Shown: positions 31,687 to 57,495 of the stretch, piece after piece
How the letters are laid out: every line of letters starts with the position of its first letter
How positions within the stretch are numbered: the first letter of the stretch is position 1
Origin: Peterkaempfera bronchialis
GTDB lineage: Bacteria; Actinomycetota; Actinomycetes; Streptomycetales; Streptomycetaceae
Direction: 5' to 3'
Assembly: GCF_003258605.2 (NCBI RefSeq)
Contig: NZ_CP031264.1
Location: 930,001-994,000, forward strand
DNA length: 64,000 nucleotides
Program-made: the position numbers and the translations under genes
The notes under the pieces: generated by a model
What the model was told of the DNA's origin: nothing
The model's input: only the letters and a program-made list of their open reading frames with translations
Databases searched by the model: none

Positions 31687-31774
31687 GTCCGGGTGGCGGA
31701 ATGGCAGACGCGCTAGCTTGAGGTGCTAGTGCCCTTTATCGGGCGTGGGGGTTCAAGTCCCCCCTCGGACACCA
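31687..31774 (+). tRNA. tRNA-Leu (anticodon GAG), CCA encoded
   Basis: 88-nt type II tRNA with a long variable arm. Acceptor GTCCGGG pairs with CTCGGAC; D-loop TGGCAGA; anticodon stem CTAGC/GCTAG encloses loop TTGAGGT, giving anticodon GAG (CUC/CUU codons). The T arm GGGGGTTCAAGTCCCCC is standard and 3' ACCA is encoded. Confidence 0.95.
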
Positions 31775-34135: not shown

Positions 34136-34753
34136 TCGCCGAGGCGGCCGCGGAGGACGACGATGTTCAGCTTGGCAAGGACGCACGTCTACTGCTGAAC
34201 TCTCCGCTTACGGACACGGTGATTCAGGCCGTCTGGTTGGCAGCTGCACGACGACGCTTCGACCCGGTGGAAGAGGGTGCGGACATGCGTCTGTGGTTGC
34301 GCGGCATCTTGGAAATTTGCCCGTCTCGGACGTGTACCTCACATGTGGGCGTCACCCTTGAGATCCCAGATCAGCTGGACCGCCTACGCCGAACCCGACC
34401 GCCTCCTGGCACGGCACCCGGAGGACTACCGGCTGGGCCAGACCTGGTGTCACCGGTGAAGGGCGTACTGCGCGGCTACCGGGACCTGGACGGCCGCCGG
34501 CGGTCTCGCTCGAACGGCACGCCCACGAGGTGGACAAGGTACTCCTGCGCGACCTTGGCACGCTGCGTCGGCTGAACGGACTGAACCGAATTCGGCAATG
34601 CGCACGCGACGCGCGGCGGCGAAGACGCCCCGGTTCTCGCAGTTTGAGATTCTGGCAGTTGGGCTCGACCGGGCGTCACGTCCCATGATTGGGTGGTCCG
34701 GGTCACATCTCTCATTCGCGCAATTCCTGACTATTGGATTGTTGGGATCACTC
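34136..34753. other. Decayed sequence before the biosynthetic cluster
   Basis: Contains scraps of coding-like sequence on the plus strand (for example VSLERHAHEVDKVLLRDLG near 34.5 kb) with no intact gene, then a more AT-rich stretch (34.69-34.75 kb) that likely holds the promoter of the SDR gene. Confidence 0.45.
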
Positions 34754-35527
34754 ATGGACCTGGGACTTTCGGGGCGCACAGCGCTCGTGTGCTCGTCCAC
34801 CGGCGGGCTGGGGGAGGCAATCGCCCGGGCGCTGGCCACGGAGGGGGCCAGGACCGTGGTCTGCGGACGGCGCGGGGAACGCGCCGGGCAGATCGCCGCC
34901 CAGCTGCCCACTGCCGTGGGTGTCGAGGTGGACCTGCTGGCCGAGGACGGGCCGGCCCGGTTGCTGGAAGCGACGGTCGCGGCCTTCGGTCCCCCTGACG
35001 TGCTCGTTCTCAACGGGCCCGGGCCCAAGCCAGGTCCGGCGAGCAGCCTTGATCTGGCCGAGGTGGATGCCGCGCTGGACGCCACGCTGCGCCAGCAGTT
35101 GCGCCTGGTCGCGCTGGCACTGCCGGCCATGCGGGAACGGGGCTGGGGCCGCATCCTCGCGGTCGGGTCCAGCGGGGTCGCCGCTCCGATCCCCAACCTG
35201 GCGCTCTCCAACCTGGGCCGCGCGGCGCTGGCCGGCTACCTCAAGACCCTGGCCGCCGAGGTCGCCGCGGACGGGGTGACGGTGAACCTCCTGCTGCCCG
35301 GACGGATCGAGACCGAGCGCACCGCGGCGGTCGATGCCGCCAACGCCGAGCGCACCGGCCGCAGCCTCACCGAGGTACGGGATGCCTCGATCAAGGACAT
35401 TCCCGCAGGTCGCTACGGTCGACCTGCGGAGTTCGCCGCAGTCGCCTCCTTCCTGTGCAGCACGCACGCCTCCTATGTGACCGGCACCGCGATGCGCTGT
35501 GACGGCGGCTATCTCCGCAGCCTGTGA
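34754..35527 (+). CDS. SDR-family protein lacking the usual YxxxK, 257 aa
   Basis: Rossmann-fold protein of the FabG-like SDR family: cofactor region CSSTGGLGEAIARALA and the terminal YVTGTAMRCDGGY are standard. At the active site, where YxxxK is expected, it reads LALSNLGRAALAG after VGSSGVAAP, so Ser remains but Tyr and Lys are replaced (LSN..R subgroup). The reaction is therefore uncertain. First intact gene after the decayed region; could belong to the cluster or to the adjacent AraC regulator. Confidence 0.75.
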   Translation: MDLGLSGRTALVCSSTGGLGEAIARALATEGARTVVCGRRGERAGQIAAQLPTAVGVEVDLLAEDGPARLLEATVAAFGPPDVLVLNGPGPKPGPASSLDLAEVDAALDATLRQQLRLVALALPAMRERGWGRILAVGSSGVAAPIPNLALSNLGRAALAGYLKTLAAEVAADGVTVNLLLPGRIETERTAAVDAANAERTGRSLTEVRDASIKDIPAGRYGRPAEFAAVASFLCSTHASYVTGTAMRCDGGYLRSL

Positions 35528-35624: not shown

Positions 35625-36533
35625 ATGCCCACGACTAGTGATCTGGAGGTCGCCGCCTGGCGGCCGCCCGTATGTGGCATCAGAGAAGTTTTCCATGCGC
35701 ACATAACGAACCATGTCTACCCCATGCACACGCATGACTCATGGACGCTCCTCATTGTCGACGACGGCATTGTCCGTTTCGACGTGGAACGCCATGAGTA
35801 CGGCGCTCTGAATCACCTCGTCACGATCCTTCCGCCGCAGGTCGCGCACAACGGGGATTCGGTCTCCCCGGACGGATTCCGGAAACGGGTGCTCTATCTG
35901 GACCCCGCCCTGCTGGGCAGTGAACTCATCGGGGCCGCCGCGGACCAGCCGGTCATCTCGGACCCCGTGCTGCGGCAGCGAATCCACCTACTGCACACCG
36001 CCCTGGACGGAAGTGGCGAGCCGCTGGAGGCCGAGAGCAGGCTGGACTTCATCGTCGAACGCCTGCACGGACACCTTGCGGGAACGCTGCGGAACCCACG
36101 GCCGACGGCCGCCCCGGGAGTCGCCCGGCGTCTTCGCGACCTGCTCGACGCGCGGCTGGTGGAAGGCATCACGCTGGCGGAGGCCTCGGAGTTGTTCCAG
36201 ACCCACCCCACGCATCTGGTCCGCGCCTTCACCAAGGAGTTCGGCGTGGCCCCTCATCAGTACCTGACGGGCCGAAGGGTGGACAAGGCACGTGAACTGC
36301 TCCTGGAGGGCATGACGCCGGGCCTCGTCGCGGCGGCCACCGGCTTCTACGACCAGTCGCACTTCACCCGCCACTTCAAGAACACCCTCGGTACCAGCCC
36401 GGGCCGCTACGCCCGGTCCGCCACCGGCTCGACCTCGGCACCGGGCATCTCCCGCAGGCGGCTGAGCGGAGACAGCAGCACTCCGCAGAGCACGAAGACC
36501 GCCGATCCGACCGTCGAGACCCACAGGGTCTGA
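35625..36533 (+). CDS. AraC-family transcriptional regulator, 302 aa
   Basis: N-terminal cupin-type sensor (HAHITNHVYPMHTHDSW, with typical His-rich strand) and C-terminal double HTH: GITLAEASELFQTHPTHLVRAFTKEFG and ATGFYDQSHFTRHFKNTLGTSPGRY in shortened form. It is the only intact regulator within the cluster and may control it. Its last 42 codons overlap the end of the MFS gene on the other strand by 127 bases; the native AraC fold ends before that, at about GRYARS. Confidence 0.88.
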   Translation: MPTTSDLEVAAWRPPVCGIREVFHAHITNHVYPMHTHDSWTLLIVDDGIVRFDVERHEYGALNHLVTILPPQVAHNGDSVSPDGFRKRVLYLDPALLGSELIGAAADQPVISDPVLRQRIHLLHTALDGSGEPLEAESRLDFIVERLHGHLAGTLRNPRPTAAPGVARRLRDLLDARLVEGITLAEASELFQTHPTHLVRAFTKEFGVAPHQYLTGRRVDKARELLLEGMTPGLVAAATGFYDQSHFTRHFKNTLGTSPGRYARSATGSTSAPGISRRRLSGDSSTPQSTKTADPTVETHRV

Positions 36534-37711
36534 TGCGCTCCGGTCTGCTGGGCGAGCAACCCCGCCAGCAGGCCGCCGAGCGCGCCCAGCCCGAACATCA
36601 CGGCGCGCACCGCCGCGTTCATCCGCCCCAGGAAGGCGGGCGGGGTGACGTTCTGCCGCACGCTGATGATCAGGATGTTGACGGTCGTCAGCCCCAGCGC
36701 CCCGAGGAACCAGGCGATCGTGAACAGCACCTCCACCAGGACGTCCGCGCCTGCGGCGGCCGGCAGGAGCAGCATCGGAATGAACGCCGCGGCCAGCGCG
36801 CAGGCGTAGAGGCGGCCCAGGGAGAGCCGCTGGGTCAGCCGGCGGCAGAGGATGCCGCCGACGATCCCGCCGCAGGCGCCGACCGAGAAGATCAGGCCCA
36901 GTACCGAGGTCGGCACATGCCGGTCGCGGACCGCATACAGGATGAACATCGGCTGCGTCGCCGAGAGGAAGAAGTTCGCCAGGCCGCCGACCGCCGCGAT
37001 CCACCGCACCAGGCGGTTGCCCGCGACGAACTTCAGTCCCTCGACCAGATCCGTGCGGATTCGCCGCTCGGCCACGGCCGGAGGCTGGGGCTCCCTGGTG
37101 CGGATCAGCAGCAGCGAGACCACCGAGCCCAGGTACGTCCCGGCGTTCGCGGCCATCGCGATCGGCGCCGACAGCAGGTTCACCAGCGATCCCGCCAGGC
37201 CCGGCCCGGCCGCGTCGGCGGTCGCGGATGTGGTCGCCAACTTGGAGTTGGCTTCGACCAGGTAGTCCGGGTCGCGGATCAACGTGGGGACGTATGACAT
37301 CCAGCTGATGTCGAAGAGCACCGCGCCGACACCCACCCCGAAGGTGATCAGCATCAGCCGCGGCATGTCCAGTTGATCGAGCCAGGACAGCAGCGGGATC
37401 AGCCCGATCAGGGCCAGACGCAGGGTGTTCGCGCCGATCATCGCCGTGCGCCGGCGGTGGCGGTCCACCCAGACTCCGAAGATCGGCCCGAAGAAGAGGT
37501 AGGGGACCATCTGCAGGAACCGCAGCAGGCCGACCTCGTCGGGCTGCGCGTCCAGCGTGATCACCGCGGTCAGCGGCAGTGCCAGCACGGTGATCTGGGT
37601 GCCGAACAGCGAAAGGGTCTCCCCGGACCAGAAGGTGAGGAATTCCCGGTTGCGCCACAGGCTCGGCCTGGCCGCGGCCCGCTCCGGGGCCGCGGTTTCG
37701 TGTGTGGTCAT
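36407..37711 (-). CDS. MFS exporter, 434 aa
   Basis: Major facilitator superfamily transporter with 12 predicted membrane segments, of the enterobactin-exporter-like (MFS_3) group: WRNREFLTFWSGETLSLFGTQI at the start (shortened) and the loop VDRHRRRTAMI after segment 2. Follows the NRPS and thioesterase genes on the same strand (11 bp after the thioesterase stop; AAGGAG before the ATG), so it probably exports the cluster product or gives self-resistance. Confidence 0.9.
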   Translation of the reverse strand: MTTHETAAPERAAARPSLWRNREFLTFWSGETLSLFGTQITVLALPLTAVITLDAQPDEVGLLRFLQMVPYLFFGPIFGVWVDRHRRRTAMIGANTLRLALIGLIPLLSWLDQLDMPRLMLITFGVGVGAVLFDISWMSYVPTLIRDPDYLVEANSKLATTSATADAAGPGLAGSLVNLLSAPIAMAANAGTYLGSVVSLLLIRTREPQPPAVAERRIRTDLVEGLKFVAGNRLVRWIAAVGGLANFFLSATQPMFILYAVRDRHVPTSVLGLIFSVGACGGIVGGILCRRLTQRLSLGRLYACALAAAFIPMLLLPAAAGADVLVEVLFTIAWFLGALGLTTVNILIISVRQNVTPPAFLGRMNAAVRAVMFGLGALGGLLAGLLAQQTGAHQTLWVSTVGSAVFVLCGVLLSPLSRLREMPGAEVEPVADRA

Positions 37712-37722
37712 GCTGGTACTCC

Positions 37723-38541
37723 TTACGGTCGCGCGGCGGACACCTCGTGCAGCGCGTCCCGGACCGCTGCGCCCAGAGCCTCCAGGCCGGCTCCGCGCCA
37801 CATCGAGAAGTGGTCGCCGGGCACGGTGACGGTGCGCACGTCCTGCGCCGCATCGGTCCACCGCAGCGGACCGCGCGGCGACTCCTCGGCCTCGACCACC
37901 AGCACCGGTCCGGGGTAGCCGGGCTCGGGCCGGTACCCGTGCAGGGCCTCGACGTTCCGCCGGAAGACCTCGAACAGGCGGTCCAGGGTCTCGGCGTCCA
38001 GGTCTTCGGAGATCAGGCCCGCCCGATGGAGCAGACGCCAGGCGTCCCCGGTCGGCGCGGCCGACGGCCACTCCCGCAGCGCGTCGGCCACGTGCTGCTC
38101 GCTCTGTCCGTTCCCGGCCTCGGCCAGCAGGTTGACGGCGAACCTGGCCAGGACCACCTCCCTCGGCGGGACCGGTTCGGCATGGTGCAGCAGGGCGTCG
38201 ACCAGCACCACGAGCGCCACCCGACATCCCCGGGCCCGCAGCCGGTGGGCCATGGTGTAGGCGACCGCGCCGCCCATCGACCAGCCGAGCAGGCACAACT
38301 CCCGTCCCGCACAGTCCTCTTCCACCGCGCGGACGTAGTCCTCAGCGAGCTCGCACAGATCGGTGGGCGGCAGGCCGTCGCCGTCATATCCGGGCACCTC
38401 GATGCCGACGACCGGCCGACCGCCGAGGAGGCCGACCAGCGGCAGGTAGGTGTAGGCGGAGCCGGAGGCGGAGTGCACGCAGTACAGCGGCGGCAGCCCG
38501 GCGTCGTCCCCGCCGAACGGCAGGAGGCGGTCAGCCGACAC
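37723..38541 (-). CDS. Stand-alone NRPS-type thioesterase, 272 aa
   Basis: Alpha/beta hydrolase of the NRPS/PKS type I thioesterase family. The nucleophile elbow is LLGWSMGGAVAY, the catalytic His sits in VPGDHFSMWRG, and LPPLYCVHSASGSAYTYLPL is the typical TE entry. Start GTG 38541 overlaps the NRPS stop by 11 bases, so it reads like a TE domain split off from the C-A-T protein and translated with it. It should release the peptidyl or aminoacyl intermediate by hydrolysis or cyclisation. Confidence 0.9.
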   Translation of the reverse strand: MSADRLLPFGGDDAGLPPLYCVHSASGSAYTYLPLVGLLGGRPVVGIEVPGYDGDGLPPTDLCELAEDYVRAVEEDCAGRELCLLGWSMGGAVAYTMAHRLRARGCRVALVVLVDALLHHAEPVPPREVVLARFAVNLLAEAGNGQSEQHVADALREWPSAAPTGDAWRLLHRAGLISEDLDAETLDRLFEVFRRNVEALHGYRPEPGYPGPVLVVEAEESPRGPLRWTDAAQDVRTVTVPGDHFSMWRGAGLEALGAAVRDALHEVSAARP

Positions 38542-41500
38542 GGCCGGGCCCCGCCTTGGCACCCGCCGCCTTCGCCGCCACCAGCCGGTCGACCTCCGCC
38601 GAGATCGAACGTGTGGTGGCGTCGGCAAACATCGCCCGCAGCCGGATCTTCACCCCGAACTCCTTGCCGATACGGCTGACGACCCGCATCGCCTGCAGCG
38701 AATTGCCGCCGGCCGCGAAGAACGCCACCGCCGCGCTCACCCGCTCGACCTCCAGCACCTCGGCGTAGATCCGCGCGACCGCCTGCTCCGTCGGCCCCTG
38801 CGGGGCGACGTAGTCCTCCTCGGGGTCGGCCTCGACCGGGTCCGGCAGGGCCTTGCGGTCCACCTTCCGTGCCGTGGTGAGCGGCAGACTGTCCAGCACC
38901 ACCCACGCGGTCGGGATCATGTACTCGGGCAGCCGCTCGGCCAGGTGGGCGCGCAGTTCGGCCGCGTCCGGAACGCGGTCGCCGGCCGGCGACGCGTAGC
39001 CGACCAGGCGCTTCTCACCGCGCCGGTCCTGCCGCAGCGCCACCGCGCCGACACCCACGTCCGGGTGCGACATCAGCGCGGACTCGATCTCCTCCAGCTC
39101 GATGCGCAGGCCCCGCAGCTTCACCTGGCCGTCGCCGCGACCGAGGAACTCCAGCTGGTAGTCGCGGTTCCAGCGGACGAGGTCGCCGCTTCGGTAGACC
39201 CGGCCGCCGGGGTGGAACGGGTCCTCGGTGAACGCCGCGGCGGTCAGGTCCGGCCGGTTGAGGTAGCCGCGGGCGAGGCCCTCCGCACCGCCGATGAGCA
39301 GTTCCCCGGCGATACCGCGGGGGACGAGCCGGTCGGCCTTGTCGACCACGTACATGCGGCGGTCGGTGAACGGGGCGCCGATCGGCGGCGCGCTGCGGGC
39401 CGGCTCGTGGGGGCACTCGTAGGAGGTGCAGCCGACCGCGGCTTCGGTGGGCCCGTAGCAGTTGATCAGCCGACGCCCCGGCAGGTTCCACTTGGCGACC
39501 ATCTCGGCCGGAACCGCCTCGCCGCCCGCCATGATCTTCCGCAGCTTGGGGTAGGGTCCGCCCTCGACCAGTGCGAGCATCGCCGGCGACATGCAGATGT
39601 AGGTGACCTCCCGCGCCCGCATGAGCGCCGCGAGCGCGTCGGGCGAGGTGCCGGCCTCCTTGTCGACCAGGACCAGGGCCGCCCCGGCGGTGAGGCCGGC
39701 GAAGATCTCGCCCTGCGACATGTCGAAGGCCAGCGCGGCCAGCTGGAGCATCCGGTCATCCGGCTGGAGGTCGAACACACGCCGGTAGGAGGCGATGAAC
39801 GACTGGAGCGCCCGGTGTTCGAGGAGAACTCCCTTGGGCTGGCCGGTCGAGCCGGAGGTGTAGATGACATAGGCGAGCGAGTCGCGGCCGGCCTCCTCGG
39901 CCCAGCCCTCGGACTCGGCTCCCGCCTTGGCGATGGCCCCCCGCTCCTGGTCGACCTCGACGATCGACCAGTCCGCCGACTCGGGTATGCGCTCGCGCAC
40001 CCGGCGCTGGGTCAGCACGATCGGCGCCGCGGTGTCCTTGAGGATGTACTCGAGTCGGCCCACCGGGTGCGAGGGGTCCAGGACTGCGTACGCCGCCCCG
40101 GACTTCAGCACGCCGAGCAGCGCGACGAGCGCGTCCAGGTCGCGCTCCATCGCCACCCCGACGACCTGCCCGTGCCGCACCCCCCGGTCGCGCAGGAAGG
40201 CGGCGAGCTCGAACGCCCGGCGCTCCAGCTGCTGGTAGGTCAGGCTCTCGCCCTCGTACATCGCGGCGATGCGGTCCGGCTGCTCCAGCGCGCGCCGGGC
40301 GATTGCGGCGTGCACCGGCTCGTCCGCGTGGGAGAGCATCTCGCCGATCCCGGCGGCGAAGAGCTCCTGGGCCTCCGTGTCGTCGAGCAGCGTCAGCTGC
40401 GACACCCGCTGGGCGGGGTCCGCGCAGGCCGCCCTCAGCACCTGTGCCAGATGCCGGACGAGTGCCTCGATCCGCCAGCCGTCGAAGAGGTCCGCAGCGT
40501 ATTCGACACCCACCTGGAGCCGGTCGGCCGACTCCACGAAGGTCAGCGCCAGGTCGAAGCGTGCACCGAGCGACGGGAGGTCGACCGCTTCCGTGGTCAG
40601 CCCCGGGAGGTCCATCGTCGTGCCGGAGGTCTGCTCGGTCAGGAACTGGGCGCAGACGCCGAACAACGGGTTGCGGCCGGGATCGCGGTGCGGCCGAAGC
40701 CGGTCGACGACCCGTTCGAAGGGCACGTCCTGGTTGTCGTAGGCGTCGAGCAGGACGTCGGAGAGCCGGGACAGCAGTTCGTCGAAGGCGGGATCGTCCT
40801 GGAGGCCGGCCCGGAGTACCACCATGTTGGTGAAGTACCCGACCACCTCTTCGAGATCCGGATCGGTCCGACCGAGCGCAGCGGTGCCGAGCGAGACGTC
40901 CTGCTGGCCGGTGTACCGGCCCAGGACCACGGTCAGCGCGGCGGTCAGGACCATGAACAGCGACGCGCCTTCGGCCTCGGCGAGCGCGCGCGCCGCCACC
41001 AGCAGGTCCGGCGGCAGCTCGCTCCGCGTGGTGCCGGCGGCGAAGCTCGGTTCGGCCGGGCGCGGCCGGTCGGCCGGCAGCTCCAGCGGCGTGACGCCAT
41101 CCAGCTGCTCCTGCCAGTAGCCGAGTTGCTCTTCCAGGCCGCCGTTGTCGAGAGCGGCGCGCTGCTCGGCGGCGAAGTCCGCGAAGCGGACCGGCGGCGG
41201 GGCGTCCGCCGCCCGGTCACCTGCCCCGCCGGCCGGTCCGTCGCCCCGGAGCGCCGCGGCGTAGCCGTCCTGGAGCTGCCTGAGCAGCAGGCTGGTCGAC
41301 CAGCCGTCGGTGACGAGGTGGTGGAAGACGAGCGACAGCACATGCTCGTCCGCCGAGAGACGGAACAGCCTGAACCGGTACAGCGGGCCGCGCACCAGGT
41401 CGAAGGACTGGCGGACGTGCTCCTGGAGCTCCTTCGCGAGCTGGGCCTCGCGGGCTTCGGGGGTTGCGTCGGTCAGGTGGCCGACCGGCAGGTCCACCGC

Positions 41501-41734
41501 CGACGGCGGGGTGAACACCATCCCCGGCGTCCCGTCCACCGTGGACACCGTTCCACGCAGCGACTCGTGCCGCCGCACGAGCTCGGTCAGTGCCGCGGCG
41601 AGCGCCGTGCCGTCCAGCGGCCCGCGAATCCGGTGGGCGACCGCGACGTTGTACGTCGCGAGCCCGGGAGTCAACTGCTCCAGGAACCAGAGCTGCTCCT
41701 GCCCGACCGACAGCGGCACCTGTTCCGACGCCAT
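38531..41734 (-). CDS. Nonribosomal peptide synthetase, C-A-T, 1067 aa
   Basis: Single NRPS module. Condensation domain (about 1-430) keeps HHLVTDGWS; adenylation domain (about 470-960) has YTSGSTGQPKGV, NCYGPTEAAVG, YRSGDLVRW and the terminal catalytic Lys in ARKVDRKALP; the carrier domain has FFAAGGNSLQAMR with the phosphopantetheine Ser. Pocket residues read by eye as D-M-G-C-M-G-C-V-G-K do not match a code I can assign. The ATG at 41734 begins MASEQVPLS. Beginning with a C domain, the module needs an upstream donor, plausibly the stand-alone A-T protein at 48.1 kb. Heads the minus-strand operon NRPS, TE, MFS. Confidence 0.93.
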   Translation of the reverse strand: MASEQVPLSVGQEQLWFLEQLTPGLATYNVAVAHRIRGPLDGTALAAALTELVRRHESLRGTVSTVDGTPGMVFTPPSAVDLPVGHLTDATPEAREAQLAKELQEHVRQSFDLVRGPLYRFRLFRLSADEHVLSLVFHHLVTDGWSTSLLLRQLQDGYAAALRGDGPAGGAGDRAADAPPPVRFADFAAEQRAALDNGGLEEQLGYWQEQLDGVTPLELPADRPRPAEPSFAAGTTRSELPPDLLVAARALAEAEGASLFMVLTAALTVVLGRYTGQQDVSLGTAALGRTDPDLEEVVGYFTNMVVLRAGLQDDPAFDELLSRLSDVLLDAYDNQDVPFERVVDRLRPHRDPGRNPLFGVCAQFLTEQTSGTTMDLPGLTTEAVDLPSLGARFDLALTFVESADRLQVGVEYAADLFDGWRIEALVRHLAQVLRAACADPAQRVSQLTLLDDTEAQELFAAGIGEMLSHADEPVHAAIARRALEQPDRIAAMYEGESLTYQQLERRAFELAAFLRDRGVRHGQVVGVAMERDLDALVALLGVLKSGAAYAVLDPSHPVGRLEYILKDTAAPIVLTQRRVRERIPESADWSIVEVDQERGAIAKAGAESEGWAEEAGRDSLAYVIYTSGSTGQPKGVLLEHRALQSFIASYRRVFDLQPDDRMLQLAALAFDMSQGEIFAGLTAGAALVLVDKEAGTSPDALAALMRAREVTYICMSPAMLALVEGGPYPKLRKIMAGGEAVPAEMVAKWNLPGRRLINCYGPTEAAVGCTSYECPHEPARSAPPIGAPFTDRRMYVVDKADRLVPRGIAGELLIGGAEGLARGYLNRPDLTAAAFTEDPFHPGGRVYRSGDLVRWNRDYQLEFLGRGDGQVKLRGLRIELEEIESALMSHPDVGVGAVALRQDRRGEKRLVGYASPAGDRVPDAAELRAHLAERLPEYMIPTAWVVLDSLPLTTARKVDRKALPDPVEADPEEDYVAPQGPTEQAVARIYAEVLEVERVSAAVAFFAAGGNSLQAMRVVSRIGKEFGVKIRLRAMFADATTRSISAEVDRLVAAKAAGAKAGPGRVG

Positions 41735-41944: not shown

Positions 41945-43459
41945 TTGACGACCAAGGTCCTGACGATCGGCGCACCAGTCGACGACCTGCACGAGCGGCG
42001 GCTGAAAGCGGTCGCCGCAGCCAGCGCCAGGCTCGGTGTGCTGACCGGAGCCCCGGCGCCGGGGACGTCCACCACCGCGATCGAACTGCTGCGTACGCTG
42101 GCATCCGCCGGCCGGATCGCGGTGAGCGCGGAGGACGACGCGGCCGGGCCGTGGACGCTGTCCTACGTGCCTTCGGCGGCCGCGCTGGCCGCGGTGGCCG
42201 GGGGCAGTGCGCCCTCCTGGGGGGCGCGGGTGGACGCCAAGCAGCAGAAGGCGCTGCGCCGGAGCCGGGGGGCGGTGATCCGGCTGCCCTTCGCCGATCC
42301 CGCGACCGGCGAGGCGAGCGGCGACTCCCTGAGCACCTTCACCACCGACTGGTCGCCCTTCACCGCCGCCTGCGCGGTCGTGGTGCACCCCGACCACGTG
42401 GCGCTGGCCGCCACCGAGGTGCGGCAGCGCCCGTACTTCAGCGGACGCTTCGTGCGCCACCCGCTCCACGGCGACCTGCTGCCCGTCTGGGTCGCCGACT
42501 GGGCCAAGCCCGAGTTCGGCACCGGCGCCGTGATCGTCAACCCGGCGCACTCGGTCGCCGACCTGGAGTTCGCGCGCGCCATCGGGCTGCCGATCCGCTT
42601 CGGCCTCGGCGAGCAGGAGCCCGGCGCCGACCCGGAGACCTGGCTGACGCCGCCGGTCATCAAGACGGGAGTCGCGGTGCGGGCCGGTCGGCGGCACGAC
42701 GGCCGGCCCCACGAGGAGGCGATGCAGGCGTACCTTGAGGACCTGCTGGCGTCCGGGTACGGCGAGTGGGCCGAGTCCGTGTCGCTGGGCCGGGCACCGC
42801 TCGCGGTGCTGAGCGCCGACCCGGCCGGCGAGGTGCGCTGGGCGCCCGCGCTACGGGCCCGCAGCCTCACCGAGGGGGTGGACGGGGCCGCGGCCGTGTC
42901 CGTGTCGATCGACCCCGCGCCGCTGCTCGCCTCGGCCGCCGAATACACGGTGGGGCGGGCGACCCTGGTCGCCTCGTCGGAGGCGGTCACGGCCGATCTG
43001 CTGTGGCTGCGCCTGCTGATGCTGGACATCGCGGTCGAGCACCCGCCGGTCGCGGTGGTGCCGGTGGCCCGGGTCGGCTCAGCCCAGAGCGTCGAGTCGC
43101 AGTGGCTGGACGGTGCGCTGCTGGTGGCGGGTCGGACGGATGAGACCGTGTCGGTCAAGGCCCAGCTCAGCGAGCAGATCGGGCGTATCGCGGGTGATCA
43201 CGCGGCGGCGGCCGCCGCCGCCGGAGAGCCGGAGCCCGCAGCGTCCAAGACCGCTGCGAAGATCTGTGAGGCGCTCTCCGCCGCCGACTTCCCGACCGCC
43301 TTCGGCACGGCCACCGCCGTCGCGAAGACGGTGCGGCGCGGGGGCGCGCTCGGGGCGTCGGAGCGCACCGCGTTCCTCGCCGCCCTGCATGTGCTCTTCG
43401 GGCTCCCGCTGCCCGAAGGCTTCTCCGCAGCCACGCTGGACGGCTCGTTCCGGAAGTGA
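41945..43459 (+). CDS. Leucyl-tRNA synthetase editing-domain-like protein without catalytic motifs, 504 aa
   Basis: Resembles the class I LeuRS CP1 editing domain and the sequence after it. Residues 129-140 (SLSTFTTDWSPFT) align with the threonine-rich TTRPDT editing motif, and 180-215 (PVWVADWAKPEFGTGAVI, then NPAHSVADLEFARAIGLPI) with LeuRS PVWIADYV-GTGAVM-VPAHDxRDxEFA. The Asp used to bind the amino acid amine (E. coli D345 position) is kept at 206, while the first Asp is Ser and the specificity Thr is changed. HIGH and KMSKS are absent, so no aminoacylation is expected. TTG 41945 follows GGAACGGAG. Likely a trans-editing, self-protection or tRNA-handling protein for the cluster; this role is inference. 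Confidence 0.8.
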   Translation: MTTKVLTIGAPVDDLHERRLKAVAAASARLGVLTGAPAPGTSTTAIELLRTLASAGRIAVSAEDDAAGPWTLSYVPSAAALAAVAGGSAPSWGARVDAKQQKALRRSRGAVIRLPFADPATGEASGDSLSTFTTDWSPFTAACAVVVHPDHVALAATEVRQRPYFSGRFVRHPLHGDLLPVWVADWAKPEFGTGAVIVNPAHSVADLEFARAIGLPIRFGLGEQEPGADPETWLTPPVIKTGVAVRAGRRHDGRPHEEAMQAYLEDLLASGYGEWAESVSLGRAPLAVLSADPAGEVRWAPALRARSLTEGVDGAAAVSVSIDPAPLLASAAEYTVGRATLVASSEAVTADLLWLRLLMLDIAVEHPPVAVVPVARVGSAQSVESQWLDGALLVAGRTDETVSVKAQLSEQIGRIAGDHAAAAAAAGEPEPAASKTAAKICEALSAADFPTAFGTATAVAKTVRRGGALGASERTAFLAALHVLFGLPLPEGFSAATLDGSFRK

Positions 43460-43566: not shown

Positions 43567-45039
43567 CTACCGGCCGGAGACCCGGTCCATAACCTCCTCG
43601 CCCGCCGGGTTGCGCTTCGCGCTGATCCGCTTCTGGTGCGGGTCGGTGATCATGACCTGCGGAAGGACTCCTGTCTGCGCGGACATGTCCGCGAACGGCG
43701 ACCACAGCGGGCCGTCGTGCAGAGCCTGCAGATCGGTCGTGCTCAGTCCGCTGATCCGCTCCAGACGGGCGGCGAGCGCGCGGTCCACGGAGCCGGCCAG
43801 GAGCGCTCGGATCCGGTCCTCGGCCTCCAGCAGCTCGGGATGCTCCCCGGCAAGGAACTCGTGCAGGTTGGCCGCTCGTCCCGCGAAGGGGGAGTACACC
43901 ATGCAGATCAGCTGCGTGGTGTCGAGCCCGAAGGCATCCTCGCCGTACCGGGTCGCCGCCTCACGCATGGACTCGACACCGGCCTCGGTGGCGTAGCGCT
44001 GCCGCATCTCCTCGACCAGGTGCTCCGGGAAGTGCTTGCGGCGCATCAGTTCCAGGGCGAAGTCGACATACTGGCCGATGCCCTCCTGGTAGGAGCGCTT
44101 GTACACCCGCTCGGTCCGCAGCCCGCGCAGGTGGGCCATGAGCGCGGGGTTCACGCAGTCGGACTCGGTGAAGTTGAACGCGATCTCGTCGAAGACGAAG
44201 CCGAGGAAGCCCGTCAGGAGACTCCAGTGCGCCCCCGAGGCGTAGCTCGTGTAGTCGTAGATGGAGTAGAACTGGAGCGCGGTGGAGATGTCCGAGGCCA
44301 CCCCACGCGCTTCGATCCGCTCCGCGTTCTCCGAGCCGTGGATCTCCTGGAAGTACGCCCTCGCCAGCCCGTTGAGCGTCTCCAGCGTGCCCTGGAAGCC
44401 CTTCTTGCTGTCGGCAGGCTTCAGACCGGCACTCCGCGCCAGCTGCCGAATCCACAGGGCGTAGTCGCGCTGCTCCTGGGGAGAGTCCCCGGTGATGATC
44501 AGGTCCACGCCCTCGCCGTGGCCGGCGGCCACACCGAAGGAGTCCGCCACGTTCAGGTTGCACGCGTTGCAGAACGTGGCCCGGCCGTCGCCGTAGGTGC
44601 GGTGCCCGGACATCAGCATGTCGACCCGGTTGAAGTCGATCAGCCGGTGGGGCATGCTCCGGTCCCGGGCGAAGGGGCGGACCTGGCCGCCCTCGATCAG
44701 CAGCAGCTCGGCATCCGGATCGCCGTAGAGCCCCAGCGCCTGGTACGTGCGGTCGATGTTCTGCATCACCTGGTACGGCATGCCGCCGTGCCGCATGGTC
44801 GCCACCCGCAACCGGAAGGTCTCGCCGTGCCGTTCGGCGAGGGCCAGGTGGACTGCGCGCACAAAGGCCAGCGCATAGGAGCTGTCCTTGCCGCCGCCAT
44901 AGGCGACCATCACCGTGTTCCGCCCGAGCTCGCCCGGTCGCGGCAGCGCCTTGAGCAGCGTCGTCGCGCACTCCTCGACCGCCGGCACATCCCGCTCCGG
45001 GAGCGCCTTCCGCAAGTCGTCAAGAATAGCCGTGCTCAT
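43567..45039 (-). CDS. PP-loop ATP pyrophosphatase-family protein with CxxC, 490 aa
   Basis: Adenine nucleotide alpha-hydrolase fold. PP-loop is VAYGGGKDSSY (residues 45-55), and CNAC at 157-160 with LIITGDSPQEQRDY resembles the catalytic-cysteine region of PP-loop tRNA thiolases and N-type ATP pyrophosphatases. The C-terminal 250 residues have no domain I recognise. Such enzymes adenylate a carbonyl or base so that sulfide or ammonia can be added. No sulfur-carrier gene is seen nearby, so amidation is as likely as thiolation. ATG 45039 follows GGAGGGATGTC. It faces the LeuRS-like gene. Confidence 0.8.
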   Translation of the reverse strand: MSTAILDDLRKALPERDVPAVEECATTLLKALPRPGELGRNTVMVAYGGGKDSSYALAFVRAVHLALAERHGETFRLRVATMRHGGMPYQVMQNIDRTYQALGLYGDPDAELLLIEGGQVRPFARDRSMPHRLIDFNRVDMLMSGHRTYGDGRATFCNACNLNVADSFGVAAGHGEGVDLIITGDSPQEQRDYALWIRQLARSAGLKPADSKKGFQGTLETLNGLARAYFQEIHGSENAERIEARGVASDISTALQFYSIYDYTSYASGAHWSLLTGFLGFVFDEIAFNFTESDCVNPALMAHLRGLRTERVYKRSYQEGIGQYVDFALELMRRKHFPEHLVEEMRQRYATEAGVESMREAATRYGEDAFGLDTTQLICMVYSPFAGRAANLHEFLAGEHPELLEAEDRIRALLAGSVDRALAARLERISGLSTTDLQALHDGPLWSPFADMSAQTGVLPQVMITDPHQKRISAKRNPAGEEVMDRVSGR

Positions 45040-45381
45040 GACATCCCTCCTGGCTGCTTGACCCTGCAGGACGCAGCCGACTCCGGTCGTCGAGGCCCCG
45101 GTCGTCGGGGCCCGGTGTCGTGAACGAATGCGCCGACCACCAGTCAATCGCCCAGAGGTCACGCAGAAGGAGAAGCCCGCCCCGGCGAACCGTGCGCGGG
45201 TGTGCGTCTCAAATAATGGACAGCGCAGCCCGTTCGGCTCCTGGGGTCCCGGGCAGCGGAATCCAGCCTCGACTGGATGCGCCGACAGGCGCTGAGCGAC
45301 TCATCCAGGGTCGGCGCCAGCTCTCGCCCAGAAAGCCAAACACAGGTATTCGCCCCCTGTCCAGCGAAGTCAATCAGTTCG

Positions 45382-46164: not shown

Positions 46165-47193
46165 TTGTCTACTGCACCCGCCCCGCTGTTCGAGCCGCTG
46201 ACGAGCGAGATTCTTGACGCCACCCTGCGTGATGGTTCCTATGCCGTCGACTTCCAACTCGACCAGAAGTTCGTCATCGAACTCCTAGGCCGACTGAACG
46301 AGACACCGATCGAGAAGGTGGAGATCGGCCACGGCCTCGGTTTCGAGGCCGAGCGTTCCGGTATCAGAGCCTGCAACATCGACCTGTCCCGGTGGTGCGA
46401 GATCGCACGTTCGGAACTGTCGGAGACCTCCTGGGGGATGTTCGCGCAGCCCGGTTTCAGCCGGCTCGGCACACTGGAGGAACTCTGCAGCCAGGGCATG
46501 TCGTTCGTCCGCATCGGTATGGAAGCCGATCGGGTTCCCGAGCACCTCGACTACATCGAGCGCGCCACCGAGATCTGCGGGCAGGTCTACCTCAACCTCA
46601 TGAAGACGAGCGCCACACCTGCCCAGCAGCTGCCCGAGCTGCTGAGCGGAGTCACCCCGGCCGTTGCCGGGCTGTACGTCGTGGACTCCTACGGCTCGAT
46701 GCTGCCCAGCGACGTGCACCGTTATGTGGAGGTCGCCAAGGAGTGCTTCCCGGTCGTCGGGTTCCACGGCCACGACAACCTCGGCATGGCGAACGCCAAC
46801 AGCATCGCCGCGCTTGAGGCGGGCGCCACCATCGTCGACGGAACGCTCGACGGCATCGGCCGGGGCGCCGGCAACGCGGAGACCGAGTCGCTGGCCGGCA
46901 TCCTCAGCCTCATCGGCAACGACAAGTACGACTACAAGCGACTGGCCCGGCTCGCGGAGTTCTGCCGGACCAACCTGGAACTGCTGCCGGAGAACCGGAA
47001 CATGCAGGTCCTCGGTGGAGTGATCGGAATTCACTCCGGATACTTCCCGCTCATCGAGGAACTCTGCGCCGAGCTCACCGTCGACCCGGCCCCCCTGATG
47101 GAGACCGCCGTCGACCTGGCCTCGCAGAGCGTCGGCAAGAGCCACATCCACGCTGCGGCGCAGCGGATCTCCCAGGGCCTCGCGGCGGTCTAG
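46165..47193 (+). CDS. DRE-TIM metallolyase (4-hydroxy-2-oxoacid aldolase/HMGL-like), 342 aa
   Basis: TIM-barrel carbon-carbon lyase or synthase. Metal-binding DATLRDG is at residues 18-24 and GFHGHDNLG with metal His201 and His203 near 200, followed by GATIVDGTLDGIGRGAGNAETE as in 4-hydroxy-2-oxovalerate aldolases. The residue after RDG that is His in DmpG/BphI (general base) is Tyr here (RDGSYAV), so the exact reaction is open: pyruvate aldolase, or acyl-CoA-type synthase. TTG 46165 has GGAGGA upstream. Opens the plus-strand operon and probably builds an unusual 2-oxo acid. Confidence 0.85.
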   Translation: MSTAPAPLFEPLTSEILDATLRDGSYAVDFQLDQKFVIELLGRLNETPIEKVEIGHGLGFEAERSGIRACNIDLSRWCEIARSELSETSWGMFAQPGFSRLGTLEELCSQGMSFVRIGMEADRVPEHLDYIERATEICGQVYLNLMKTSATPAQQLPELLSGVTPAVAGLYVVDSYGSMLPSDVHRYVEVAKECFPVVGFHGHDNLGMANANSIAALEAGATIVDGTLDGIGRGAGNAETESLAGILSLIGNDKYDYKRLARLAEFCRTNLELLPENRNMQVLGGVIGIHSGYFPLIEELCAELTVDPAPLMETAVDLASQSVGKSHIHAAAQRISQGLAAV

Positions 47194-47227: not shown

Positions 47228-48064
47228 GTGAGAATCGCACGATTCGATGCCGGCAGCGGATACCAGATCCACGCGGGTCAGGACGGCAGTTGGGCGCCGC
47301 TCTCGGCATTCGAAGGGTACAAGGCTCCCACCCGGATCGCGGATCTGCTGGACGATGCCCGGAGAAGCGAACTCGCCGCGCTGCTCGCCTCCCGGTCGGT
47401 CGAGCGGCTGACCGATGTTCGGCTCGACGGGGCTGCGACCATAGCCGACGGCGGCGACATCTGGGGCGCCGGCCTGAACTACCGGGGCCATTCGGAGGAT
47501 CTGAACACCCAGCAGCCGGCCTCCGGCCCCGGATCGTACCTGAGGCCCAGCAGCTGCCTGATCGGCAACGGGCAGCAGATCAACCTGCCGTCCCAGAGCA
47601 AGAGGGTGACCGCGGAGGCCGAACTCGGTCTCGTCATCGGCTCGGAATGCAAGAACGTGTCGCGCGCGGACTGGCGCTCGGTCGTCGTGGGTGTCACCGC
47701 CGTGCTCGACATGACCGCAGAGGACGTGATCCGCGAGAATCCGCGGTACATCCCGTGGGCCAAGGGGTTCGACACGTTCTGCAGCATCGGGCCGCAGCTG
47801 GTGACGCTGGACGAGTTCGACGATGCGGCTCTCCAGGGGATTCGGGTGTCGACCGTCCGCAACGGTGAGGTCATCTCCTCCGCCCTGGTGTCCGCCATGA
47901 AGTACGACCTGGGTTATCTGGTCGAGTACTTCACGGCCGGGCGGACCCTGGTACCCGGAACCGTGATCTGCACGGGAACCCCGGGAGCCGCTGTGATCAG
48001 CCCCGGGGACTCGATCAAGGCCGTCGTCGAGGGTGTGGGAACGCTCGTCCACACCGTGGGGTAG
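47228..48064 (+). CDS. Fumarylacetoacetate hydrolase-family enzyme, 278 aa
   Basis: FAH superfamily (hydratases, hydrolases, decarboxylases of 2-oxo acids). The core is AEAELGLVIG with the metal Glu, DMTAEDVIRENPRYIPWAKGFDTFCSIGP and TGTPGAAVISPGDSI. An N-terminal arm of 75 residues precedes. Together with the aldolase it resembles the last two steps of meta-cleavage pathways (hydratase plus aldolase), possibly run in the synthetic direction to make an unsaturated 2-oxo acid. AGGAGGAGG sits eight bases before the GTG. Confidence 0.88.
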   Translation: MRIARFDAGSGYQIHAGQDGSWAPLSAFEGYKAPTRIADLLDDARRSELAALLASRSVERLTDVRLDGAATIADGGDIWGAGLNYRGHSEDLNTQQPASGPGSYLRPSSCLIGNGQQINLPSQSKRVTAEAELGLVIGSECKNVSRADWRSVVVGVTAVLDMTAEDVIRENPRYIPWAKGFDTFCSIGPQLVTLDEFDDAALQGIRVSTVRNGEVISSALVSAMKYDLGYLVEYFTAGRTLVPGTVICTGTPGAAVISPGDSIKAVVEGVGTLVHTVG

Positions 48065-48097: not shown

Positions 48098-49816
48098 TTG
48101 ACTGTGCAGCAGATATCAGTAGTGGACGCGATCCAGCGCGCCGTTCAGGACCATCCCCACTGCACCGCCATCGAGACCTCCGACGGCTCCATCACCTATC
48201 GGGAGTTCGGCGAGTACACCCGCGATTTCACCTCGCGACTCGAATCGCTCACCGCTCCGGGTGAGTTCATCGGAATCGAGGCCATCCGCACCTCGGGTTC
48301 GATCGTCGCCATGGTCGGCGCGCTGGCCGCCAGACGGCCGTTCGTGTTCATCGACCCGCGCGACAGCGAGTCGTCGAACAGGAGCAAGGTGTCCTCGCTC
48401 GGTATCAACGTGGTCGCGAGCAGCCGCGACGCGCCGCACGCGCCACGGCTCGCCGCGCCGCCGGCCGAGTGGCGGGACGGCGCGGGAGACCGGCCCCTGG
48501 CGGATCTGGCCGAATACCAGGGAACGCTCGGCTACGCGATCCACACCTCGGGTTCGACCGGAGAGCCCAAGTGCGTCCTGGTGCGCGCGGAACCGCTGGT
48601 GCCCATGGTCCGGGACCATGTGCGACGTCTGGAGCTGGACCCGCAGTGCCGCACGCTGCAGTTCGCCCGCCTGACCTTCGACGGGTGCATAACCGAGATT
48701 CTGTGGACCCTGACCTCGGGCGCCTGCCTGGTGATCCTGGGCGAGGAGCACCTCAGCCCGGGAACGGTGCTCCAGCGGACGTTGGAGGACTTCCGCATCA
48801 CCCATCTGAAGACGACGCCGTTCGCGCTGACGTCCACTCAGCCGAGCGATGCGATGACCCTGAAGCATGTGATCAACGGTGGCGGCGCCTGCCGGCAGGC
48901 CGTGCTCCGGAAGTGGTCGTCGGCAGCGGCCTTCCACAACGCCTACGGGCTGACCGAGACCACCGTCTGCAACTTCCTCAGCGACCCGCTGGACCCGGAC
49001 GACTGCCGGGAGTCCATCCCGCTCGGCGACGTGGTGGGCGACTGCGGGTTCGATGTCGTCCCGTTGCCGACGGCCACGGCGGACGGTGCCGCCGGATCGC
49101 CGGTGACCCGTGGTGAACTCGTCATCACCGGCAACAGCGTCGCGGTGGGCTACCTGACCGCGCAGGGCGTGCAGCGCTTCATCGACGACAACGCGGACCG
49201 GGTCTACCGGACCGGCGACATCGTCGACCACCACGACGGGCAGGTCTTCTTCGTCGAGCGGCTGGATCGGCAGCTCAAGGTCCGCGGCTACCGCCTGGAC
49301 CCGGGTGAGGTCGAGAGCGCGGCCTGCCGCCTCGACGGGGTCGTGGAGGCGGTCGTCTCCGCCGAGTCGCACGAGAACGGTGACGACTCCGCCGTCGATG
49401 CCCTGGTGTGCTACTACCTGGGCACCGCCACCTCCCGGGAGGTGCGCGCCCACCTGGAGGCGGTCCTCGACTCCTACAAGGTCCCTTCGGTGATCCAGCA
49501 GATCGAGGCGATCCCCTACACGCGGAACGGCAAGGTCGACCGCGAGGCGCTCCGGGCGAGCCGCCGCACCGCTCCGGCTGCGGCCCGGGCCGCCACACCG
49601 GAGGAGCAGATCCTCGAACTGGTACGTCAGCTCACCGGAGTGGACGACGCCGGCCTCGACGACAACTTCTTCGACGTCGGCGGCGATTCGGCCTCCACGG
49701 TGATCCTGGTCAACAAGCTGAAGGAACTCGGCTGGATGGCTGTCGGCGTCCGGGACGTCCTCCGGGCGGAGAATCTGAAGGTTCTCGTCGACGAACTACG
49801 TGATCGGAGTGCTTGA
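48098..49816 (+). CDS. Stand-alone NRPS A-T didomain, 572 aa
   Basis: Adenylation domain plus carrier domain. Visible: HTSGSTGEPKCVLV (A3), FDGCITEILW (A4), NAYGLTETTVCN (A5), YRTGDIVD, RLDRQLKVRGYRLDPGEVE and NGKVDREAL with the catalytic Lys, then FFDVGGDSASTV in the carrier. Pocket residues read by eye D-G-T-K-I-G-A-V-C-K share T-K-I-G with Asn/Asp-activating codes, suggesting an Asn, Asp or related substrate (tentative). TTG 48098 chosen; GTG 48104 possible. Would load the donor for the C-A-T module across the cluster. Confidence 0.92.
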   Translation: MTVQQISVVDAIQRAVQDHPHCTAIETSDGSITYREFGEYTRDFTSRLESLTAPGEFIGIEAIRTSGSIVAMVGALAARRPFVFIDPRDSESSNRSKVSSLGINVVASSRDAPHAPRLAAPPAEWRDGAGDRPLADLAEYQGTLGYAIHTSGSTGEPKCVLVRAEPLVPMVRDHVRRLELDPQCRTLQFARLTFDGCITEILWTLTSGACLVILGEEHLSPGTVLQRTLEDFRITHLKTTPFALTSTQPSDAMTLKHVINGGGACRQAVLRKWSSAAAFHNAYGLTETTVCNFLSDPLDPDDCRESIPLGDVVGDCGFDVVPLPTATADGAAGSPVTRGELVITGNSVAVGYLTAQGVQRFIDDNADRVYRTGDIVDHHDGQVFFVERLDRQLKVRGYRLDPGEVESAACRLDGVVEAVVSAESHENGDDSAVDALVCYYLGTATSREVRAHLEAVLDSYKVPSVIQQIEAIPYTRNGKVDREALRASRRTAPAAARAATPEEQILELVRQLTGVDDAGLDDNFFDVGGDSASTVILVNKLKELGWMAVGVRDVLRAENLKVLVDELRDRSA

Positions 49817-49821
49817 TCGCG

Positions 49822-51594
49822 ATGTGTGGCGTATGCGGGACCTATTCTCCGAACGGTCAGGTGGATCGCAGCATCGCGGCTGCCATGCACAACCGGCTGG
49901 TCCATCGCGGACCTGACGAGACCTACTCACTGAACACCGAAACAGTCTCCGTAAAGCTCGGCCGCCTCGGCATGACGGGCCTGGTCGACGGCTGGCAGCC
50001 CGCCGAGGACCGCAGCGGCCGGTACGTGGCCATGACGAACGGCGAGGTGTACAACGCCAAGGCCCTCCGCGAGAAGGTGGGTTCCGACCGGCAGCGGAAC
50101 GCCGTCGATGTGGCTGTCATCCCGGAGCTGGTGTCCCGGTACGGAATCCAGGGACTGGGCCTGGTCGACGGGCAGTTCGCGACCGTCGTCTTCGACCGTG
50201 CCGAGAACTCGCTGATCCTGGCCAGGGACCGGTTCGGCATCTGCCCGCTGTACTACACGGTGGCCGGCTCCGACATTCACTTCTGCTCGGAGCTCAAACC
50301 GCTGGTGCAGTGCGTCGACCAGCCCTGGAAGGTGGACATCGGCGCTGTCGACCAGTACTTCTCGCTGGGGAACATCGTCGCGCCACGGACCCTGGTGAAG
50401 GGCGTGCACGCCGTTCCCCCCGGCTGCGCCGTCCGGTTCGGTCCGGACCGGCAGGAGACCGTACGCTACTGGCGCTACGGCCAGTTCGTTCCCGCCCCGG
50501 AACCGGTCTCCGAGGAGGCGCTCAGGGAGGGTCTGCAGTCCTCCGTCCGGGACCGCCTGCATGCCGATGTGGAGATCGGCGCCTATCTGAGCGGGGGATT
50601 CGACTCCACTGCGATCCTGATGGAATCGGCCGCGCTGCTCGACCGGCCGGTCCGGACCTTCTCCGTCGTGTTCGACGATCCGTCGCTGGACGAGGGGCGC
50701 TTCCAGCGGGAGGTGGCGGAGCAGGTCGGCAGCAAGCACGAGCAGATCCTGTGCCGGCCCACCGACATCGCGTCGCGGTTCGAGGAGATGGTCCGGCACT
50801 GCTGCTATCCGCAACGCGAGACCTACAATGTGGCCGCCATGATGCTCGCGGACACGGTGCGGTCCTTCGGCGTCAAGGGGGTCGTCTCCGGCGAGGGAGC
50901 GGACGAGCTGTTCTTCGGCTACGACTCCTATGCCTTCGACAGCGCGACCCGATCCACCCGGAGCTCCTGCGCGGAGAACGAGCAGGCCTGGGGCCGGGCG
51001 GACTTCAGCTGGGAGGTCGACTGGCGAAAGGTGAGCCGGCGGCGGGAGCACCTTGCCTCGGCGGCACATGAGGCGCTGGTGGGCGAGGAGTTCTGGCGCA
51101 CCAGGCTGATTCCGTTCTCCGAGGACGAGGTCAAGCTGCTCTCATCGATGCAGCTGCGCTCGATCTCCGATGTGTACGTCCAGCTGGCGGGCCATCTTCT
51201 GGGCGACCACGGCGACGCGATGGTCATGAAGAGCTCGATCGAGGGCCGCTACCCGTTCCTCGGGAACTCGGTGGTCTCCCTCGCTCTGCAGACCGGCGAC
51301 AGTGCGAAGGTGGTCGACTTCGAGGGCAAGGCGTGCCTCAAGTCGGCCTACCAGGGAGTCGTCCCGGAATCCGTTCTGCGGCGTGGCAAGCACGGGTTTA
51401 CCGCGTACGACCTGCGGTCGGTCGTCGATGAGCGGACATGGGAGGGCTGGCGGGGCCTGGTCGAGGCCAGTGGGGTCTTCGCCCCCGGCTGCCTCGACAC
51501 GGCGCCTGGTCAGGGTGGTGCGGACAAGTGGGACTTCAGGCTCAGCCTGATCAGCATCGCCATGGTCATGGATGAGCTGGCACTCGGGCTCTGA
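49822..51594 (+). CDS. Asparagine synthetase (glutamine-hydrolysing)-like amidotransferase, 590 aa
   Basis: AsnB family. The N-terminal Ntn glutaminase begins MCGVCG, with Cys2 as nucleophile after Met removal, which fixes the ATG at 49822 over a TTG three codons earlier; HRGPDE and TNGEVYN are standard. The synthetase domain has PP-loop YLSGGFDST and SGEGADELFFGYD. Expected to turn a carboxylate into an amide using glutamine and ATP, or to form an intramolecular amide as in carbapenam/beta-lactam synthetases. Starts 5 bp after the A-T stop, so it is in the same operon. Confidence 0.92.
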   Translation: MCGVCGTYSPNGQVDRSIAAAMHNRLVHRGPDETYSLNTETVSVKLGRLGMTGLVDGWQPAEDRSGRYVAMTNGEVYNAKALREKVGSDRQRNAVDVAVIPELVSRYGIQGLGLVDGQFATVVFDRAENSLILARDRFGICPLYYTVAGSDIHFCSELKPLVQCVDQPWKVDIGAVDQYFSLGNIVAPRTLVKGVHAVPPGCAVRFGPDRQETVRYWRYGQFVPAPEPVSEEALREGLQSSVRDRLHADVEIGAYLSGGFDSTAILMESAALLDRPVRTFSVVFDDPSLDEGRFQREVAEQVGSKHEQILCRPTDIASRFEEMVRHCCYPQRETYNVAAMMLADTVRSFGVKGVVSGEGADELFFGYDSYAFDSATRSTRSSCAENEQAWGRADFSWEVDWRKVSRRREHLASAAHEALVGEEFWRTRLIPFSEDEVKLLSSMQLRSISDVYVQLAGHLLGDHGDAMVMKSSIEGRYPFLGNSVVSLALQTGDSAKVVDFEGKACLKSAYQGVVPESVLRRGKHGFTAYDLRSVVDERTWEGWRGLVEASGVFAPGCLDTAPGQGGADKWDFRLSLISIAMVMDELALGL

Positions 51595-57443: not shown

Positions 57444-57458
57444 GTCCACACCGGCCGC

Positions 57459-57488
57459 TTGCCCGACTGTTCCGCGGATTCCTAGGCT
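57459..57488 (+). promoter_or_regulatory. Probable promoter TTGCCC-N18-TAGGCT, leaderless
   Basis: -10 TAGGCT at 57483-57488 is seven bases before the nitrilase ATG, the spacing of leaderless streptomycete transcripts; no ribosome site is visible before this ATG. Confidence 0.5.
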
Positions 57489-57495
57489 CGGTGTC

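Follow-up and report, generated by a model that had tools for sequence, protein, structure and literature searches.

The reading frame at positions 41945 to 43459 of the window, a stretch of 64,000 nucleotides of the Peterkaempfera bronchialis genome, encodes a pseudo-leucyl-tRNA synthetase (pseudo-LeuRS) in which the editing domain is retained. The frame is open from a TTG codon at 41945 to the stop codon at 43457-43459 and comprises 504 codons; its TTG aligns with the ATG or GTG starts of the orthologues (MTSKV...). The name LED is used here for this protein and its relatives. LED clusters are divided into class I, which includes the window, Sphaerimonospora and Micromonospora, and class II, which includes four genomes of the host's own family (G1085, G993, G795 and G1339). 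The features of the window's candidate cluster are:

34598..35527, forward strand: SDR oxidoreductase, conserved with LED in both cluster classes
35625..36533, forward strand: AraC-family regulator, conserved with LED
36407..37801, reverse strand: MFS exporter, conserved with LED in class I (start approximate)
37723..38628, reverse strand: thioesterase on the NRPS side, conserved with LED
38531..41719, reverse strand: NRPS (C-A-T), divergent from LED and located beside it in Sphaerimonospora and most Micromonospora clusters (start codon approximate)
41945..43459, forward strand: LED, a pseudo-LeuRS of 504 aa that retains the editing domain (coordinates from the TTG start up to and including the stop codon)
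43567..45162, reverse strand: PP-loop-type ATPase with GGGKDS motif, conserved in most LED clusters (start about 45120)
46165..47193, forward strand: HMGL-type (4-hydroxy-2-oxovalerate aldolase-like) enzyme
47228..48064, forward strand: FAA-hydrolase-family enzyme
48098..49816, forward strand: adenylation domain and carrier (A-T)
49813..51594, forward strand: AsnB-type amidotransferase
51643..52338, forward strand: type II thioesterase
52545..54029, forward strand: FAD/NAD(P)-binding oxidoreductase, also in class II clusters
53849..55258, forward strand: ATP-grasp ligase (dapdiamide-synthase-like), also in class II clusters (start approximate)
55265..56272, forward strand: EamA-family exporter
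56214..57443, forward strand: second ATP-grasp ligase (L-amino-acid-ligase-like)
57346..58461, forward strand: nitrilase-family carbon-nitrogen hydrolase (Nit6803-like), right end of the candidate cluster

The PP-loop protein (GGGKDS, CNACN) matched no family in Pfam, NCBIfam or PDB. A homologue with 44% identity is carried by the Methylobacter plasmid NZ_CP091425.1 (L069), without LED, and adjoins an AsnA-like gene and genes for a B12-binding protein, an aminotransferase and an EamA exporter. The joint presence of the PP-loop protein, AsnB and the nitrilase-family enzyme in the window prompts the question whether amide or nitrile chemistry is involved. Beta-lactone chemistry of the cystargolide type was considered for the HMGL-type enzyme and rejected, since the enzyme is nearer to 4-hydroxy-2-oxovalerate aldolase than to isopropylmalate synthase.

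LED as a degenerate leucyl-tRNA synthetase

The LeuRS editing domain is the only Pfam family above threshold in LED (PF13603, E 3.5e-13; its 49.9 bits exceed the curated cut-off of 25), and LeuRS CP1 chains come on top of a phmmer search of the PDB, the best being the E. coli LeuRS editing domain 2ajg (E 2.7e-12). These matches, far beyond chance level, substantiate the likeness to the LeuRS CP1 domain that the initial annotation had proposed by eye. PF13603 is also the sole family common to all ten LED members scanned (best E 9.6e-19). Against the NCBIfam LeuRS model TIGR00396, LED reaches 37.2 bits, below the curated cut-off of 548.4, as is expected of a LeuRS relative that is no LeuRS; the overall domain order is that of a LeuRS, and the HIGH and KMSKS motifs are missing. 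The host genome (7.09 Mb, one contig) also encodes an ordinary LeuRS, a megabase from LED, with the HIGH motif and the editing site intact. A phage or plasmid origin of LED was discarded, the matches there being ordinary LeuRS genes, and so was a defence system, for which PADLOC gave no hit.

The domains of LED are arranged as follows:

41945..42328, forward strand: N-terminal Rossmann-half remnant and pre-CP1 segment (residues 1-128), with W..RV..KQ.K..RR..GA, compare LeuRS WPERV..MQRNWIGRSEGA
41990..42001, forward strand: HIGH-motif site, where residues 16-19 read HERR instead of HMGH; unconserved in distant members
42329..42784, forward strand: CP1 editing domain (residues 129-280), with a core (129-222) that is the best-conserved part of LED
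42785..43144, forward strand: C-terminal Rossmann-half remnant (residues 281-400), without KMSKS
43145..43456, forward strand: anticodon-binding-type helical bundle (residues 401-504); the LeuRS C-terminal tRNA-binding domain is missing

Alignment with 29 LeuRSs showed that LED retains the N-terminal strand of the HIGH site, the W..RV..Q......R..GA segment, CP1, the segment corresponding to 'ADTLRL' of LeuRS and the anticodon-binding bundle, and that it has lost the zinc insert, the leucine-specific domain, the KMSKS segment and the C-terminal domain. Where LeuRS has HMGH, the close relatives read LHERR, and in the distant members the site is unrecognisable. The loss of both synthetic motifs, already recorded in the initial annotation, thus holds in the alignment of LED and its relatives with the 29 LeuRSs. 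LED is thereby a synthetase editing-domain homologue without an active aminoacylation site, as trans-editing factors are.

The homology extends beyond CP1. In a profile comparison with hhalign, the LED profile (ten aligned members) matched the LeuRS profile from LED 68-502 to LeuRS 189-745 (E 5e-24). The AlphaFold model built from LED rows only was poor (pLDDT 53), too poor for interpretation on its own, and even so LeuRSs headed its PDB matches (E 1.2e-7). With LeuRS rows added, on which the model leans, pLDDT rose to 79 and pTM to 0.76. This second model superposes on residues 35-791 of E. coli LeuRS over 461 residues (Z 21.1) with an rmsd of 10.5 A, which is attributed to domain shifts, and its residues 107-277 match solved LeuRS editing domains at 1.9-2.6 A (Z about 20). 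The structure comparison proposed in the initial annotation thus found the CP1 fold. The description of LED as a stand-alone CP1 protein stood only in part: CP1 is present, but a bare CP1 domain is ruled out, since homology and predicted fold span the whole LeuRS. By profile alignment and model, LED is a degenerate whole LeuRS, made up of what is left of the two Rossmann halves together with CP1 and an anticodon-type helical bundle. In a tree of CP1 sequences, LED forms a very long branch beside divergent sequences, and for this reason no LeuRS donor is claimed.

The editing pocket and its conservation

The motifs of the pocket lie in two segments of CP1:

42341..42358, forward strand: TTDWSP (residues 133-138), in place of the LeuRS threonine-rich specificity motif TTRPDT
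42518..42562, forward strand: GTGAVIVNPAHSVAD (residues 192-206), with the GTGA loop, N199 in place of V338, the conserved His202 and the invariant amine-anchoring Asp206 (E. coli D345)

In E. coli numbering, T247 and T248 are kept in the first segment, while R249, P250, D251 and T252 are changed to D, W, S and P, respectively. The motif TTRPDT is invariant among the 29 LeuRSs, save for one P-to-A change. The family alignment took in ten LED members; TTDWSP is found in nine of them and VTDWTG in the other, and the eleventh member (G1339) also has TDW. Thus T133 (T247) is kept in 9 of 10 members and T134 (T248) is invariant. The LeuRSs (n = 29) and the aligned LEDs share T248, the GTGA loop and D345 without exception, D206 being present in 10 of 10 members. 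Every LED member has Asp at the position of R249, which does not vary among the LeuRSs; V338 is Asn family-wide; and R344 is Ala, Ser or Pro, mostly Ala. The two features that the initial annotation read from a single sequence, the kept amine-binding Asp and the altered threonine-rich motif, are therefore properties of the family. Judged as a CP1 post-transfer editing domain, LED has the PF13603 homology and the essential Asp, and TTRPDT is replaced. In LeuRS, D345 is critical for the deacylation of Nva-tRNA-Leu (PMC4932531) and T252R abolishes editing (PMC3834818). Since the hydrolytic residues are kept and those for selectivity are changed, the hydrolytic core is retained and substrate selection altered; judging from these residues, the pocket is re-cut, not lost.

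Selection on LED is uneven. The dN/dS ratio is 0.10-0.18 for CP1 versus 0.23-0.66 for the N- and C-terminal parts, and between classes I and II the identity is 56-60% in the CP1 core and 24-37% elsewhere. By these sequence measures CP1 is the most constrained region, where purifying selection is strongest. This pattern bears on two other explanations. LED may have no catalytic role and serve either as a decoy, binding the product or a tRNA-Leu, or as a partner of the host LeuRS or its regulator; the altered specificity motif and the degenerate synthetase body speak for it, and pseudo-synthetases with regulatory roles are known in general. However, the hydrolytic residues and the Asp are (nearly) invariant and CP1 is far more constrained than the remainder, so that we regard this explanation as decidedly improbable. 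A functionless LeuRS duplicate in decay would agree with the loss of several LeuRS domains, but 11 genomes from at least three families carry intact frames (34-83% identity), dN/dS is well under 1 and the cluster context is constant. A decaying pseudogene is ruled out by this conservation and by dN/dS, and such a functionless duplicate is scarcely credible.

Distribution and gene neighbourhoods

Full-length relatives of LED were found in Sphaerimonospora mesophila (83% identity) and Micromonospora okii TP-A0468 (75%), and others in four more Micromonospora genomes (66-73%). The class II members, in the host's own family, are distant (about 35%). LED is rare: it was present in 2 of 395 genomes across the class, 5 of 351 in a second family, 4 of 395 in the host's family and 2 of 393 in one genus. 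All 11 members are located in biosynthetic clusters, which extends to the whole family the cluster location initially annotated for the window.

In class I, LED is accompanied by the C-A-T NRPS, the thioesterase, the MFS exporter and the AraC regulator and, where the sequence reaches, also by the HMGL-type aldolase, FAA hydrolase, A-T, AsnB, thioesterase, PP-loop protein and SDR. Throughout this class the NRPS and LED are divergently oriented, M. okii excepted, where the NRPS is on the opposite side of the same cluster. In G761 (L052/L053) a transposase gene interrupts the NRPS beside LED, and LED is intact. Class II clusters are without NRPS; the block from the aldolase to AsnB occurs in G1085 and G993, and the G1339 cluster presents only PP-loop, SDR, exporter and ATP-grasp genes. 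An EamA amino-acid exporter is found with LED in four of the four class II clusters. The aldolase is absent from the genomes of G761 and G1339; the clusters of these two strains are damaged, and LED is intact in both. Since LED is common to clusters with NRPS, with ATP-grasp ligases and with neither seen, its shared role is probably protective and not one of assembly.

The gene order SDR-ACP-LED, with a FAS-type ACP directly upstream of LED, is kept in G1085, G993 and G1339 (L056, L057 and L064). Because these class II genes follow an ACP gene, the main rival to a role on tRNA is a carrier-bound substrate, LED being then an aminoacyl-thioester hydrolase or transferase that acts on aminoacyl groups of ACP or PCP. 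Adenylation and carrier domains are indeed present in the intact clusters. The change of R249 to Asp and the missing C-terminal tRNA-binding domain also speak in its favour, since they weaken the case for tRNA binding and may leave room for another substrate. Together with the acidity of LED (pI 5.2-6.2), which LeuRS nevertheless shares, they make tight recognition of tRNA-Leu by LED doubtful. On the other hand, an ACP gene of this kind is missing next to LED in class I clusters, the clusters already own dedicated thioesterases, and a LeuRS ancestor is a poor starting point for a thioesterase, given the kept residues of tRNA hydrolysis. On balance, a carrier-bound substrate is unlikely.

The cluster of G795 gives an indication of the chemistry involved. 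LED is flanked there by an EamA amino-acid exporter and a SARP-like regulator, and by a BesC-like Haem_oxygenas_2 protein, after which comes a close relative of the lysine halogenase BesD (match nearly full length, E 1.9e-119). The cluster further includes a CytC3-like chlorinating enzyme (E 6.5e-71); a carrier, an A domain, an alpha/beta hydrolase and a valine-pyruvate-type aminotransferase (AvtA); and LeuA, LeuC and a LeuD-LeuB fusion. BesD and BesC turn lysine into 4-chloroallylglycine and the CytC set makes dichloroaminobutyrate, both products being leucine-like in shape. The G795 cluster is apparently, from its gene content, a candidate source of chlorinated leucine-like amino acids, its predicted products resembling 4-chloroallylglycine or dichloroaminobutyrate, and its leucine pathway would make sense if a leucine mimic had to be either out-competed or built. 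The leucine-like pathway amino acid suggested in the initial annotation thus gains weight from the amino-acid halogenases and the complete LeuA/LeuC/LeuDB set of G795; the window's own cluster presented neither a leucine-pathway nor a halogenase signature. An ArgG-related protein is also carried by the G795 cluster (L059/L060).

Proposed role and comparison with known systems

We favour, with moderate confidence, the explanation that LED is a former LeuRS turned into a trans-editing deacylase of CP1 type, which would guard the producer against its own leucine mimic; its pocket would be re-cut for a different side chain. The cluster would make an amino acid resembling leucine, the host's ordinary LeuRS would charge part of it onto tRNA-Leu, and LED would hydrolyse the mischarged tRNA-Leu, sparing the producer mistranslation. 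The substrate would thus be a leucine-like aminoacyl-tRNA-Leu, and both its hydrolysis and the protective role are deduced from residues and gene context. Isolated E. coli CP1 is reported as inactive, in a finding cited in PMC3532385, which counts against a deacylase.

With the CP1 domain of LeuRS (PF13603; PDB 2ajg, 8pos and 4k47), LED shares the fold, the GTGA loop, the TT pair, His202 and the amine-anchoring Asp. It differs in being outside an active synthetase and in the changes of TTRPDT to TTDWSP, of V338 to N and of R344 mostly to A. AgnB2, the second LeuRS of agrocin 84 (PDB 5ah5), offers another likeness: it is a LeuRS relative in a cluster and is linked to self-resistance, as proposed for LED. 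However, AgnB2, a complete and active synthetase, takes over from the inhibited one, and LED cannot replace LeuRS.

Free-standing trans-editing factors include AlaXp and ProXp, as well as FthB and CtdA. To our knowledge, the known ones stem from editing domains of ThrRS, AlaRS, PheRS or ProRS type or from D-aminoacyl-tRNA deacylases. The fluorothreonyl-tRNA deacylase FthB of Streptomyces cattleya is, like LED, an editing-domain homologue encoded in a cluster; it clears from tRNA an amino acid that the cluster makes (PMC7408626, PMC11295145). FthB is related to ProXp-ST1 (INS-type) and acts on Thr analogues, whereas LED, a putative deacylase, is of CP1 type with a synthetase body. LED is best explained, by this analogy, as a putative class I counterpart of FthB. 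The canavanyl-tRNA(Arg) deacylase CtdA is likewise a stand-alone editor against a toxic amino-acid mimic (PMC10018355), but it has a PheRS B3/4-type fold and occurs in users of canavanine, outside any producer's cluster. Of the five families or superfamilies of trans-editing domains counted in a 2024 review, none is of the CP1 type (PMC11295145), and no LeuRS-like or CP1-type editing protein in a cluster was found in the open-licence literature. Self-resistance by trans-editing, initially annotated as little described, hence has precedents in FthB and CtdA (PMC11295145, PMC7408626, PMC10018355), although these use other editing folds.

Synthetase relatives have also been recruited into natural-product clusters for biosynthesis: SbzA and AcmF, which can transfer amino acids, are synthetase-like cluster proteins (PMC12945691). 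LED could then be an aminoacyl-tRNA-dependent transferase that delivers tRNA-borne Leu, or an analogue, to the product in the manner of the IleRS-like SbzA with Ile-tRNA, and its strict confinement to clusters agrees with this. SbzA, however, keeps both synthetic motifs (HYGH and AMSKA) and is modelled, in a review, as working in the synthetic site (PMC12945691), while LED has neither motif. The loss of both motifs and the selection that preserves CP1, the most constrained region, make an SbzA-like transferase less likely; LED is moreover common to clusters with quite different assembly enzymes. We consider such a transferase quite unlikely.

Returning to the trans-editing deacylase, a wider proposal, for and against which we see the balance as even, is that LEDs are a further trans-editing family, the first of CP1 fold: retired LeuRSs across actinomycete clusters that would clear self-made leucine mimics, including chlorinated ones, off tRNA-Leu, and would hence serve as a beacon for mining genomes for leucine-antimetabolite antibiotics. 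If confirmed, LED would fill the CP1-type gap of trans-editing for the Leu/Ile/Val group, show how a synthetase retires into a pure proofreader and provide a means of finding leucine-antimetabolite clusters; with its re-cut pocket it would be a deacylase useful for controlling the incorporation of leucine analogues.

The left edge of the window's cluster presents a tRNA-Leu(GAG) gene (31687-31774), followed by a remnant with a serine-recombinase zinc-ribbon match (to 32315). No duplicated end of this tRNA gene was found inside the 64-kb window. A functional tie of LED to it was considered and rejected, since no tRNA-Leu lies near any other LED locus. For this reason, and because an identical second copy is located at 6474395 of the host genome, the tRNA-Leu(GAG) gene is read as an integration site.
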